This document shows, piece after piece, positions 24,690 through 30,228 of a stretch of DNA of 38,093 bases. The notes beneath the pieces are model-generated. The model saw only the letters and a program-made list of their open reading frames with translations. It was not told where the DNA came from and did no database searches. This DNA is from a virus, in IMG/VR virus record IMGVR_UViG_3300019132_000065, positions 1 through 38,093 of that record; one strand, 5' to 3'. Numbering within the stretch: the first letter of the stretch is position 1; each line of letters begins with the position of its first letter. A program made the position numbers and the translations under genes.

Positions 24690-25226
24690 ATGCCGGTCAG
24701 CTACACCCAAGCGTGGATCGAGGCAGCGGCGGCGGCGGACAAGAGCGAGGTCATGCTCCCGGCCGTCGAGTTGATCCATCCCGAGTTCGTTGAGAACGGG
24801 CAGGCAGCGCCGATCCGTGCGGTGCGCAACACCGTCGACCTGATGCTGAGACTGGAGCAGGAAGCTCCGCTTCACGGCGGGCTGCTGGTCCCGTTCAAAG
24901 GTATCCTTTTCGACGTGGATTATCCACGGATCGGGAAGTTTGGAGCTGAGGCAACGCTTCGGCTCGACAACGTGAACCGGGAGGCCATGCCGTATCTGGA
25001 GGCTGCTGCGAAGTCGAACGAGCCCATTAAGGTGATCTTCCGCGGTTATCTGGCGAGCGATCCGGACACGGTGGGGCAGGGGCCCTATCACCTGTTTCTG
25101 CGCCGCGTGCGCGTCAAAGGCTCGATCCTCGAAGGCATGTTGTCGATCGCGAGAACGCAGGACATCCGCGTGATCAAGGAAACCTACGACATGGTGCGCT
25201 TCGCTACGTTGTTGCAGGTGTCGTGA
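24690..25226 (+). CDS. minor tail protein, DUF1833-like
   Basis: This 178-aa protein contains MLPAVELIHPEFVENGQAAP, AVRNTVDLMLRLEQEAP and IRVIKETYDMVRFATLLQVS, a pattern I associate with DUF1833 phage proteins. It occupies the lambda L-like slot between the M-like protein and the NlpC/P60 gene and probably forms part of the distal tail hub. It starts directly after the previous stop. Confidence 0.75.
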   Translation: MPVSYTQAWIEAAAAADKSEVMLPAVELIHPEFVENGQAAPIRAVRNTVDLMLRLEQEAPLHGGLLVPFKGILFDVDYPRIGKFGAEATLRLDNVNREAMPYLEAAAKSNEPIKVIFRGYLASDPDTVGQGPYHLFLRRVRVKGSILEGMLSIARTQDIRVIKETYDMVRFATLLQVS

Positions 25227-25456
25227 TGACTGAAGAGAAAATTGAAGTTCTATTTCAGCAGCGAACCGAGGCAGAGGGCGCGATCCGCCTTGAGCGATGG
25301 CCCGAAGGGCTCGTTCTTTGGGTTGGCGGCGAGATCCAGTGGAAATCATGGCGCTCGGAGAAGGACGCTATTTCCGTCACTCTGAGCGCCGACACGACAC
25401 AGATGCAGGCCCTCCTGCGCAACATGGCGGCAAACATCAAAGAGGCGCTGTCCTGA
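25226..25456 (+). CDS. small hypothetical protein in tail-tip operon
   Basis: This is a 76-aa protein starting MTEEKIEVLFQQRTEAEGAI and ending MAANIKEALS. It has an N-terminal helix, a central beta hairpin (GLVLWVGGEIQWKSW) and a C-terminal helix. I do not recognise it. Both ends overlap neighbours by one base (TGATG), so it is co-translated with the tail genes. Confidence 0.65.
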   Translation: MTEEKIEVLFQQRTEAEGAIRLERWPEGLVLWVGGEIQWKSWRSEKDAISVTLSADTTQMQALLRNMAANIKEALS

Positions 25457-25749
25457 TGGATCGCCCCGCTTCCCTCAGCAAAGCCTTCCAAGCCCATATC
25501 GAGGGCGAGACTGTTCGCGCTCTCCATTTCGACGGCAGTCTTGAGAGCGTGCGGACCGTGGTCGACATGGGCGTTCTTTGCGACATGGTGCCGGACAAGG
25601 CGCGGGAGAACTTCTACTGGCTCGCCTTTTTTGGAAGAGCGGGGCTGACGATGGCGGCGCCCGGCGAGGTCATCGTGGTTTATCCGGACAACAGTTGCGT
25701 CGCGCTGCATCCGGACACCTTCGACGAGCACTTTGAGACGATTGGGTGA
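25456..25749 (+). CDS. small hypothetical protein in tail-tip operon
   Basis: This is a 97-aa protein with the blocks LSKAFQAHIEGETVRALHFD, DMVPDKARENFYWLAFFG and VIVVYPDNSCVALHPDTFDE. It looks like a compact soluble alpha/beta protein. Family and function unknown. It starts in a TGATG overlap with the previous gene and ends just before a Tat-signal protein. Confidence 0.65.
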   Translation: MDRPASLSKAFQAHIEGETVRALHFDGSLESVRTVVDMGVLCDMVPDKARENFYWLAFFGRAGLTMAAPGEVIVVYPDNSCVALHPDTFDEHFETIG

Positions 25750-25760
25750 TGGAGGAACCG

Positions 25761-26054
25761 ATGCTCTCCCGACGCAAGCTTTTCGGGTTCTTGGCGGCTG
25801 CCCCGGTCGGCGCTGTCGCGGCAATAAGAACGGCTTCGCCTCAAGCGGCGTCGTTTACTCTGGGCGGGTCTCAAGGGGTGGCTCGGATCACGATCGGCGG
25901 GTCCAACATTGCAGATGGCCACATCACAGCCGACAGAGTTTCAGTTCTTGACGCCGACCTGGGCACGTACACGGCGCGCGCGGACCTCTATGCGGTCAAG
26001 TTGACTCCCGAGGGAACATGGGCGGGGTTCGATGTCATCGAGCAACGCGGCTGA
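25761..26054 (+). CDS. Tat-signal protein sharing sequence with the J-like C-terminus
   Basis: This is a 97-aa protein. MLSRRKLFGFLAAAPVGAVA is a twin-arginine signal (S-R-R-x-L-F, hydrophobic stretch, Ala-x-Ala near 28-30). The mature part has GVARITIGGSNIADGHITAD and EGTWAGFDVIEQRG. Both match segments of the J-like protein C-terminus (GVARVVLRGDLIADGSINAN and GGYWSGFEVITSDG), but in the reverse order. The start 25761 has GGAGG five bases upstream; ATG 25749 would lengthen the n-region. A folded, exported tail-tip relative is unusual in a phage tail operon. Confidence 0.7.
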   Translation: MLSRRKLFGFLAAAPVGAVAAIRTASPQAASFTLGGSQGVARITIGGSNIADGHITADRVSVLDADLGTYTARADLYAVKLTPEGTWAGFDVIEQRG

Positions 26055-26081: not shown

Positions 26082-26336
26082 ATGACCAACATCTCGTCGT
26101 TCCCCAGATGTGCAACCTGCCGCCATTGGGGACCTAACAGCGGTTCCGAACCACGCGCCACCCTTCGCGCCCGGGACGGCATCGCGCTAGGCGACTGCCT
26201 GATGATGGGAGCCTATATGGACGAGCCAGATCGCCCTGAGACTCTCGCCTTTGCGGATGGCTACGATGGGGTGGCGCTGGGCGTCGCTACCAAGGAAACC
26301 TTTGGCTGCGTGATGCACAGCGATTTCGCCAAGTGA
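26082..26336 (+). CDS. small Cys-rich phage protein
   Basis: This 84-aa protein has the pattern PRCATCRHWGP, LGDCLMM and FGCVMHSDF, giving four or more Cys spaced like the small metal-binding phage proteins that end with F-G-C. It may bind zinc or iron. Its GTGA overlap with the NlpC/P60 gene shows co-translation. Function unknown. Confidence 0.65.
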   Translation: MTNISSFPRCATCRHWGPNSGSEPRATLRARDGIALGDCLMMGAYMDEPDRPETLAFADGYDGVALGVATKETFGCVMHSDFAK

Positions 26337-26755
26337 CAGGTCGCAACGCCTTCCTCGAAAGCCTGATTGGCAAGCCGTACCGGATCGGTGCGCGCGGGCC
26401 CGACGCTTTCGACTGCTACGGCTTGGCCCGGCACATCCAGCTTGAGCTGGCGGCCGTCGCGATGCCCGACGTCGAGTTCCGAGAGGCAACGACGCGCGCT
26501 CAGGCTGAGGCCATGCTGAACCATCCCGAGCGCAGCAACTGGTACGAGGTGCCGGAGCATGAGGCGCGGGATCTCGATCTTGTTCTGATGGGCAACGTCG
26601 CCAAGCGTGATTTTCACCTCGGCACCTTTGTCGTGCCTGTGACGGCGGGCGTGGTGATCCACACCGACCGGGATTGCGGTGTCGTGGTTCACGACATGCC
26701 GACCCTACGGGCCATCGGCTTCAACTTCCTGCGGTTTTTCCGTCGCAAATCCTGA
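26333..26755 (+). CDS. NlpC/P60-type tail peptidase
   Basis: This 140-aa protein has the NlpC/P60 nucleophile motif FDCYGLARHIQLEL and a downstream His region (GVVIHTDRDCGVVVHDMP). In siphophage tails this enzyme (lambda K-like) is thought to open peptidoglycan during DNA entry. The start is GTG 26333, overlapping the preceding TGA. It lies immediately before the J-like gene, the conserved order. Confidence 0.85.
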   Translation: MTGRNAFLESLIGKPYRIGARGPDAFDCYGLARHIQLELAAVAMPDVEFREATTRAQAEAMLNHPERSNWYEVPEHEARDLDLVLMGNVAKRDFHLGTFVVPVTAGVVIHTDRDCGVVVHDMPTLRAIGFNFLRFFRRKS

Positions 26756-26757
26756 CC

Positions 26758-29700
26758 ATGAAGCTTGCCATCAAGCATAACCTCCTGGCATTCGACCCGG
26801 AGCGCGACGACGTGCGCGTGCCGGAGAGCGGCCTCGTGCTGCCGATGGCCGTGCACCGGACCAAGAAGCGCAATCCCACCATCGAGGAGGTGATCGCGGA
26901 AGCCGGCTGGCGCTTCGACCTGCCGACCGTGTGCAAGATCAACGGCCAGTATTACGGCCGCGCCGAATGGTCGACCTATCGCATCGCCGCCAACGACAAT
27001 GTCGAGTTCCTGTCGCGGCCTTTGGGCGGCGGCAGCTCCGGCGGCTCGACGGCCAAGACGATCGGCGCCGTGGTTGCCATGGTGGCACTGACGGCGCTTG
27101 CGCCCTATGCCATGGCCGCCATCGGCCTGACGGGCATTGCAGCCAGCATCGGCAGCGCGCTTCTTATCGGCGCAGGTTCGCTGGCGATCAGCCACTTCCT
27201 GAAGCCCAAGCCCGGCGCCAAGACCGACGCCAAGGAAGAGATCTATTCCTTCAGCTTTGGCGGCAATCAGGCGCGGCCGCTGCAGCCGATTCCGGTCGGC
27301 TATGGCCGCACCTTGTCGTTCCCCGATTTCGCCGCGCCGCGCTATTCCGAATTCTCCGGCGAAGCCATGACGGAATATGCGCTGTTCGCGCTTGGGTGCG
27401 GGCGCTACGACGTTGAGGAAGTCCGGATCTCGGACACCACGATCTGGACCAAGGCCGGCGGCTACAGTCCTTCGTTCCCCGGCATTACGCTTGAGTTCGT
27501 CGAGCCGGGCCAGAATGTCACGCTGTTTCCAGTCAACGTGGTCACGGCCACGGAAGTCTCAGGCATCGAGCTCAACACGACGGCGACGCCTGGCTTCACG
27601 GCCAATGCCGCAACGACTCTCGCCCGCCAGCTCCTCATCGATCTCGTGTGGCCGTCCGGCGCTTTCGTAACCTACAAGGAGCGCGTTCTGCCGACGCCGA
27701 CCGGCATTCTGGTTGAGGCGCGCACCGTCAACGATCAGGGCCAGCCGACATCCGATTGGTTCCCGATCTTCTCCAAGACCTACAGCTTCGCCAAGCAGTC
27801 GCAGATCCGGGTGACGGAGCGGATCCCGGTCGGGCCAGGCCGCTACGAAGTGCGCGCACGCCGCACGAACCCATCGATCACCGGGCAACAGTTGTTCGGC
27901 GGCAAGGTCCAGGGCACCGACGATGTTGTGTGGTCGGCCCTGCGTGCTCATATCGACGCGCCGCAGGCATTCCCGCGCGTGACCACGATGGCAATCCGGG
28001 CCAGCGCCAACGAGCAGCTCCAGGGGCTGATCAACGGGCAAATTGGCGTGATTGCCACGCGCATCCTGCCGGTCTGGGAAAACGGCCAGTTCGTCGAGAA
28101 GCCGACGCGCTCCATTGCCTGGGCTGCGCTCGATATGTGGCGCAACACCAGTTACGGCGGCGAGCGCCCTCTCAGCCATGTCGATTTCCAGTCCTTTGTC
28201 GCCTACGACGCGTTCTGGAACGCGCAGGGGCATTTCTTCGATCACATCTTCAAGGAGCCGCAATCGCTCGACGACGCCCTTGAGACGATCCTGAAAGCGG
28301 GTCGCGCCTTTCCGGCGCCGGTGGGCGATCGGCTGACCATCGTTCGCGACGAGCCGCGGGGCCTCTCAAGTACCCTGTTCACGGATTACGACATCGTCCG
28401 CGACTCGTTGGAGATCGACTACAACATGTCGAATGAGGAATTCGCGGACGGGATCATTGGGCAGTATGTCGACAGCCTAACCCTGAAGCCGGCCGAAGTG
28501 TCCTCTGCGCCTCCGGGTGTGACGCTGGCGAAGCCAACTTATGTGCAACTGATCGGCGTGACGCAGCGGGCGCAGGCCATCGGTCTCGTACGCTTTATGG
28601 CGGCCGAAACGATGCGACGCCGGATTACCGTCAGCTGGACGGCCCGGGCCGAGGGACGCATGCTCAAGCGCGGCGCTCAGGTGAAGTTGTCGAGCGAATT
28701 ACCGCAAACCTGGGGGCAATCGGTCGAGCTGCAAGAGTTCGACGAGGTCTCGCGCCGCCTGATCTTCGACCAGGATCTGGCCTGGGATGACAATGCGCTG
28801 AACCATTACATCGAGATCCGCCGCCGCGACGGACAGCCGTGGGGCCCGGTGCGGGTCACGCGCGGCGCGACTGCGAACGTTGCCGTCGTGCATCCGGCCG
28901 ATCTCGAAACGGAGGCGGAGCGGCAGGGCATGACCCTGGCGGATGCGGTTGCCCGCTCGGATCTCATGGACCTGCCGACGGCCGCGTTCTCGCCCGGCCA
29001 GCCGCGCACCTTCCCGGTACTCATCACCGAAGGCATTCCCGATACGGACGGCGAGCATATCCACCTGACCGGCGTCATGGACGATCCGGAAGTCTACAAG
29101 GTGGTGGAAACGGGCGTACCGCCCATCCCGCCCGTGCCGCCGATCTTCGACAAGATCGTGCCCACGATTATCGACGTTGGGGCGCGCATCTATCAGCGGC
29201 ATGCGAGCCTTGTGCTGCAGGCCGGCTGGACGCCGCCGAAGGGTGCGGTCTCGTATGAGGCCAAGGTTGCCTATACGTCTGCCGCTGCGCCGATGCCGGA
29301 AGATGCTGCTTTCCTGCCGGCCTATTCCGGCGAGATCTCGTCGTTCGAGGCCGTCGTGGGCGGTGCCGAAAGGGTATACCTGAAGGTCCGCGCCAAGAAC
29401 GCGCAGGGCGTGCCGGGTCCGTGGACGACGGTTGCGGTAACCCCGCCGCCGCTCGTGATGGACAATCAGTTCTTCATGATGCGGATCCGCGAGGACGACC
29501 TTGTTCCGCAGGTCCGCCGGGCGCAAGAATTCCAGCGGCTGATAGAGCCGGTAGCGCTCACGGCGGCGGCCTCGCGGGTTGCGGCCAAGGCGGCGAGCGA
29601 CAAGGGCGAAGCGGCTATCACCAAGTCGGAAGAGGTTCGCGCCGATCTCACGGAATCGATCGCCACTCTGGAAACCGAGCTCAAAGCGAGGTTCGAGGAG

Positions 29701-30228
29701 AACGAAGCCGAGATCGACCATCTCTTTCAGACGCGCACCACGGAAGCGCAAGCCACCGCCATCGCGCAAACGGTGGTTAGCGCCAAGGTCGGGGACATCG
29801 GCGAGGCAACGGTGGCGCAGCGGTTCCAGGCCGTCGCCACGCAGTTCGGACAATTGACCGGCAGCTATTCGGTTCTGGTGACAGCGGGCGGCTATTGGAG
29901 CGGCTTCGAGGTCATCACGTCGGACGGACAGCCCGGACAGATCCATTCCGAGTTCCGCATTGCGACCGATAAGCTGCTGATCGGCGCTCCGGGCGCTGGC
30001 CACAGTGCGGACTATGTGTTCTCGGTTGGCACACGCAACGGGGTGGCTCGCGTGGTTCTGCGCGGCGACCTGATCGCGGATGGTTCGATCAATGCCAACC
30101 AGATCAACGTTTTGAACCTGTCGGCGATCTCGGCCAATGTCGGTGAAGTGACGGCCGGCGTGATCCGCAGCGCCAACAACAAGATGCGCCTTGAGCTCAG
30201 CAACAACCGCATGACCATGGCGGACTAA
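26758..30228 (+). CDS. J-like central tail tip / host specificity protein
   Basis: This 1156-aa protein has J/TipJ hallmarks: an N-terminal beta-grasp-like segment with ANDNVEFLSRPLGGGSSGGS (about residues 76-95), a hydrophobic hairpin (VVAMVALTALAPYAMAAIGL), and a long central tail-hub region (RPLQPIPVGYGRTLSFPDFA, LDDALETILKAGRAFPAPVG). A fibronectin-like part and a helical stretch follow (LTESIATLETELKARFEENE). The last 120 residues form a DUF1983-like tip with GGYWSGFEVITSDG and GVARVVLRGDLIADGSINAN. It contacts the host receptor. An in-frame start at 26674 lies inside the peptidase gene and is rejected. Confidence 0.9.
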   Translation: MKLAIKHNLLAFDPERDDVRVPESGLVLPMAVHRTKKRNPTIEEVIAEAGWRFDLPTVCKINGQYYGRAEWSTYRIAANDNVEFLSRPLGGGSSGGSTAKTIGAVVAMVALTALAPYAMAAIGLTGIAASIGSALLIGAGSLAISHFLKPKPGAKTDAKEEIYSFSFGGNQARPLQPIPVGYGRTLSFPDFAAPRYSEFSGEAMTEYALFALGCGRYDVEEVRISDTTIWTKAGGYSPSFPGITLEFVEPGQNVTLFPVNVVTATEVSGIELNTTATPGFTANAATTLARQLLIDLVWPSGAFVTYKERVLPTPTGILVEARTVNDQGQPTSDWFPIFSKTYSFAKQSQIRVTERIPVGPGRYEVRARRTNPSITGQQLFGGKVQGTDDVVWSALRAHIDAPQAFPRVTTMAIRASANEQLQGLINGQIGVIATRILPVWENGQFVEKPTRSIAWAALDMWRNTSYGGERPLSHVDFQSFVAYDAFWNAQGHFFDHIFKEPQSLDDALETILKAGRAFPAPVGDRLTIVRDEPRGLSSTLFTDYDIVRDSLEIDYNMSNEEFADGIIGQYVDSLTLKPAEVSSAPPGVTLAKPTYVQLIGVTQRAQAIGLVRFMAAETMRRRITVSWTARAEGRMLKRGAQVKLSSELPQTWGQSVELQEFDEVSRRLIFDQDLAWDDNALNHYIEIRRRDGQPWGPVRVTRGATANVAVVHPADLETEAERQGMTLADAVARSDLMDLPTAAFSPGQPRTFPVLITEGIPDTDGEHIHLTGVMDDPEVYKVVETGVPPIPPVPPIFDKIVPTIIDVGARIYQRHASLVLQAGWTPPKGAVSYEAKVAYTSAAAPMPEDAAFLPAYSGEISSFEAVVGGAERVYLKVRAKNAQGVPGPWTTVAVTPPPLVMDNQFFMMRIREDDLVPQVRRAQEFQRLIEPVALTAAASRVAAKAASDKGEAAITKSEEVRADLTESIATLETELKARFEENEAEIDHLFQTRTTEAQATAIAQTVVSAKVGDIGEATVAQRFQAVATQFGQLTGSYSVLVTAGGYWSGFEVITSDGQPGQIHSEFRIATDKLLIGAPGAGHSADYVFSVGTRNGVARVVLRGDLIADGSINANQINVLNLSAISANVGEVTAGVIRSANNKMRLELSNNRMTMAD

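Follow-up and report, generated by a model that had tools for sequence, protein, structure and literature searches.

A small gene among tail-tip genes

The window, the whole 38093-base virus record analysed here, holds a 97-aa open reading frame that is preceded by GGAGG and lies a few genes upstream of the gene for the tail tip protein J. This ORF, at 25761-26054, is a real gene with a ribosome-binding site. It occupies a slot bounded by a DUF1833 gene and an NlpC gene, and it combines a putative export signal with a stretch that resembles the C-terminus of J, referred to below as the cargo. The features are as follows.

24690..25226, + strand: DUF1833 minor tail protein, left border of the slot (PF08875 41.7 bits, phrog_396)
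25751..25755, + strand: GGAGG ribosome-binding site of the small gene, read from the sequence
25761..26054, + strand: small gene, 97 aa with an ATG start, encoding a putative RR-type export signal and J-like cargo
25761..25838, + strand: signal region, about residues 1-26, MLSRRKLFGFLAAAPVGAVAAIRTAS; its N-terminal 15 residues are near-identical in 10 related phages
25830..25967, + strand: cargo block 1, residues 24-69, homologous to a J hairpin and IADGSI segment
25989..26051, + strand: cargo block 2, residues 77-97, resembling J's first DUF1983-type hairpin (GYWSGFEVI)
26333..26755, + strand: NlpC/P60-type tail protein, right border of the slot (phrog_329 E 2.7e-11; PF00877 22.5 bits, below the cut-off of 23)
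26758..30228, + strand: J-like tail tip protein with a gpI-like N-terminus, its C-terminus resembled by the cargo (NF040662 275 bits, phrog_469/phrog_31)
29866..29928, + strand: J segment paired with cargo block 2 by pairwise blastp
30019..30156, + strand: J segment paired with cargo block 1 by pairwise blastp

The stop of the small gene does not overlap the start of the NlpC gene, unlike in most of the related genes of family A described below. Three more small ORFs share the slot (25223-25456, 25297-25749 and 26082-26336) with unconvincing family matches: the first weakly resembles the type III secretion chaperone SycN (20 bits, cut-off 27) and the last phrog_5306 (E 0.002). J itself is apparently fused N-terminally to a gpI-like part, with a ThiS-like match at residues 39-91 and a match to the tail assembly family phrog_32 at 81-185.

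Pfam and NCBIfam searches with the small protein return no match, its PHROG match is at chance level, and a search for homologues among annotated phages gave nothing convincing. The N-terminus (SRRKLFGF, maximum 12-residue hydropathy 2.1, A-x-A sites after residues 18, 20 and 21) shows the features of a cleavable Tat signal, and export is predicted from these. The NCBIfam model TAT_signal_seq leaves the window protein unmatched and gives its relative L095 12.6 bits, below the cut-off of 16.7; the weak NCBIfam matches over the N-termini of relatives are mostly to Tat models. TatC is encoded in all three host genomes tested. A host-gene origin of the signal found no close match in four host genomes except the phage gene itself, and comparison with other tail proteins, of which the signal might be a fragment, gave no good match either.

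The cargo aligns with J in two blocks (J positions follow a 1184-aa numbering). Pairwise blastp against the phage's own J pairs residues 32-72 of the small protein with J 1116-1161 (41%, E 1.6e-7) and residues 77-97 with J 1065-1085 (48%, E 0.003). A profile built from 20 other J C-termini, with the window row excluded, finds block 1 at 27.1 bits (E about 3e-9), and by sequence comparison the homology of this block to the J C-terminus is certain. Block 2, with the last 27 residues scored, reaches 7.9 bits, while 2000 shuffles of the same residues peak at 5.9. Because block 2 matches an earlier segment of J than block 1 does, the cargo would run in reverse order relative to J. Block 2 is short, and a multiple alignment also allows its placement on J's terminal hairpin, in J order; a J-end model gives it no match, which favours the swapped-order reading, short of proof. 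The earlier note had described J motifs in swapped order: the homology of block 1 stands, and the reversal is probable. A cargo does not in every case match its own phage's J best; for the window cargo that J ranks seventh. A role as a recombination reservoir for J was rejected, given that cargo and J lack extended DNA similarity and their protein identity is only about 40%.

Structure prediction covered both regions, as the earlier note proposed. AlphaFold models of short single chains show a partial fold for the J C-terminus (pLDDT 66), with hairpins over the block 1 counterpart and the J end, and no confident fold for the small protein monomer (pLDDT 57), in which the signal is helical and block 2 forms a single hairpin. 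A trimer might fold. The monomer model lends no support to the earlier note's idea of export in a folded state.

The slot in related tail loci

Searches with the NlpC and DUF1833 proteins yield 60 distinct loci in which the slot between the two genes can be compared. It is empty in 28, holds a small gene with an RR/AxA signal in 17-18, and has other contents in 14. The signals are of two types. Family A fills 11 slots with genes starting MLSRR[KM]LFGFLAAAP, and family B fills seven (one contig counted twice) with the start MNRRS[IV]L[KR][LW]LGLAPVAAP; two further family B genes, L156 and L159, belong to a different tail cassette, where each lies just upstream of J. The named host genomes of related loci belong to Microvirga and Methylobacterium. 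The family A pattern occurs in one of 397 genomes of the host family and the family B pattern in three of 111 genomes of the genus of host genome G005; every occurrence is in a tail locus of this kind. That the gene is essential for tails is ruled out by the empty slots.

Several slots differ in what they hold before NlpC. L014, L015 and L007 have a small protein that lacks RR and is probably membrane-bound (MMWDLLQDATCWKGWAFGAIATIFGG...), and L009 and L010 an ORF in which an HNH-endonuclease-like motif (DGFRCRACDRAEDLEVHHRRYPATLGTETVDDLTTLCRECH) was recognised by eye. A second RR-type small protein of 106 aa (MAHGQHTTRRAL...) is encoded at L003:475-795 and L045:1905-2225; in L003 it lies upstream of the tape-measure gene, and its cargo has no visible relation to J.

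All 19 distinct proteins share an RR pair, a stretch of moderate hydrophobicity and A-x-A sites. The joining of an RR-type signal to J-like sequence, seen earlier in the window alone, is borne out, with two distinct signal families sharing the plan. Such different signals on comparable cargo argue that export matters, and are most naturally read as exporting a mimic of the tail tip. Strong ribosome-binding sites precede most of the family genes, open frames are kept in all, and the stop of most family A genes overlaps the NlpC start. The signals are near-invariant in protein while synonymous sites change, pointing to strong purifying selection (dN/dS ~0.04 for L004 against L022). The cargo of the same pair evolves faster and is still constrained (~0.3); for L005 against L006 the cargo value is ~0.9, on few changes.

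While the signals are conserved, the cargo differs strongly between proteins. At least 12 of the 19 distinct proteins carry cargo resembling J or the C-terminus of the tape measure, and seven have weak or no matches to tail proteins; as a control, 340 shuffled cargos gave three matches below E 0.01, the best at 0.005. The clearest cases are two family B proteins, L028 (43% over 75 aa of a related phage's J, E 3e-9) and L098 (39% over 69 aa of its own J, E 8e-9), which are shortened relatives of the J stalk in J order, or mini-Js. L028 also weakly matches annotated tail fibre proteins of unrelated phages. L041 and L032 match J as well, and L159, L156 and L040 do so more weakly. Five family A proteins (L005, L006, L023, L004 and L022) terminate in J's extreme C-terminal motif, at profile scores of 6.5-13.4 bits against at most 5.5 for 3400 shuffles and at most 4.4 for non-J ORFs; their final residues are partly set by the overlap with the NlpC start, and the match in L005 and L006 ends earlier. 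The tape measure is represented by its C-terminal motif in L095 (E 2e-4 against its own tape-measure protein) and L030 (phrog_1538, E 6e-4). Judged by sequence, then, tail modules of Methylobacteriaceae-type phages contain a set of small genes that join one of two RR signals to a J-like or tape-measure-like piece. The L022 cargo also has a 33-aa match (E 0.001) to ORFs of 482-574 aa in L147 and L088 (VRTIKHPDPAEFKVRADKYLIRL / LRWIKHTDPRIYGVRVSDYLTRL); the one in L088 lies downstream of J.

Possible roles of the cargo

What could an exported copy of the tail tip or of the tape-measure end do? Most plausibly it would compete with the incoming tip for a partner, and a mimic that hinders entry of related phages is the best explanation at hand, tentatively held and with somewhat less than an even chance of being right. 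The signal would route the protein through the host Tat system to the periplasm, probably late in infection. There, or after lysis, it would imitate the tip of an arriving phage and, as a decoy, occupy an envelope or tail-tip partner that the J spike or the tape-measure C-terminus normally touches. Related phages would be hindered at entry, or fewer progeny lost on the dying cell and its debris, and the variety of cargo would reflect differences and coevolution among these partners. In T5, superinfection is blocked by Llp, a small periplasmic protein whose gene adjoins the receptor-binding one (PMC9586334), and the lambda tape measure contacts inner-membrane proteins on entry (PMC13190303). 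Expression of the gene in a lysogen is doubtful, given its position within the tail operon and, in family A, the usual overlap with the NlpC start.

Some observations weigh against a decoy. The copied part of J is spike-like, and the related T5 spike does not bind the receptor; the own J is not consistently the top match of a cargo, the monomer has no confident fold, and more than a third of the cargos resemble tail proteins weakly or not at all. The earlier note spoke of a receptor-contacting tip, a description that the comparisons do not support: a profile of the J C-terminal region finds the F2-pyocin fibre at E 7e-6 and gives a weak hit, at E 0.022, to T5 pb4, a spike with no direct part in host recognition (PMC10038345). 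A Foldseek search with this region had its best hit, also to T5 pb4, at E 0.44 and is counted as no evidence. A pure receptor decoy, as originally proposed, fails to explain why a tape-measure-like piece replaces J sequence in two relatives.

The same cargo could work inside the cell. The hydrophobic N-terminus would then anchor the protein at the inner membrane while its J or tape-measure part binds the tail tip under construction, aiding or regulating tail assembly, or poisoning assembly by a related phage in the same cell, comparably to Tab and Tai, small prophage or satellite proteins that act on tail assembly (PMC10884400, PMC11364771). Membership of the tail operon, the NlpC overlap in most family A loci and the derivation of cargo from two tail-tip proteins fit such a cytoplasmic or membrane-tethered assembly factor. 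Both signals, however, keep RR and AxA sites that a plain anchor would not need, the 28 loci with no gene in the slot make it dispensable for assembly in general, and PADLOC profiles, which may not hold Tab or Tai, matched none of six proteins; the idea is unlikely, yet a serious rival. The variability of the cargo, its rapid change in L005/L006, the mixture of tail genes that it resembles and the many loci without the gene would also suit evolutionary debris of little function: a mobile gene that carries the signal and whose 3' end is replaced again and again by duplicated pieces of adjacent tail genes. Against this origin stand open frames throughout, ribosome-binding sites in most copies, strongly constrained signals and, in L004/L022, a constrained cargo, along with the J-end motif at the extreme end of five proteins and J order over ~70 residues in L028 and L098; it too is unlikely, though a serious rival.

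Tails assemble in the cytoplasm, which makes the other suggestion of the earlier note, a virion tip component needing export, unlikely. A virion component could do without export if the hydrophobic RR N-terminus were a plain virion or membrane-penetrating segment. The gene does lie among tip genes, and J-like hairpins could add to the J spike; yet about half of the relatives have an empty slot, and the N-terminus looks like a cleavable Tat signal, the region over which the weak NCBIfam matches of relatives are mostly to Tat models. This is very unlikely. A bolder version of the preferred entry-blocking mimic makes the proteins Tat-exported, fast-changing mini-copies of the phage's own tip: since Tat transports folded complexes, separate receptor-binding proteins could even hitchhike on the J-end docking motif, which would close the receptor and exclude rivals by self-mimicry. 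That extension is decidedly doubtful.

Should export and a block of entry both prove true, phages would be excluding rivals through mimicry of their own tail tips. The excluded rivals could then be predicted from sequence, and the mimics would serve as handles to find the envelope components that J spikes and tape-measure proteins contact, of which we know none in these hosts. A literature search of open-access papers found no report of RR-signal tail mimics, and no described family matched.

Comparison with known systems

The proposed functional parallel is T5 Llp and the superinfection-exclusion protein Cor, which are likewise small, carry an export signal (export being predicted here) and are encoded near a tip or receptor-binding gene (PMC9586334). 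Unlike these, which have a lipoprotein signal, the proteins described here have RR and AxA sites, and the window protein has no cysteine and hence no lipobox; nor are Llp and Cor known to be built from tail-protein sequence. An exclusion role here is suggested by analogy. In its cargo the window protein is akin to the PF09327/DUF1983 fibres, T5 pb4 and the F2-pyocin fibre, being homologous to the J C-terminal hairpins whose profile matches those fibres. It differs from J and DUF1983 fibre proteins in having no full spike and, in profile searches, no hub or FNIII domains (NF040662, PF13550, PF24801), with a signal in place of the N-terminus and a probable swap of block order. HK97 gp15 and other entry-blocking morons are also small phage genes, and they concern a stage of entry that involves the tape measure. 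Unlike the window protein, gp15 is located in the membrane as a membrane protein and, to our knowledge, is no copy of a tail protein. Tab and Tai are small proteins from prophages or satellites that also act on tails, but they do so on assembly within the infected cell.
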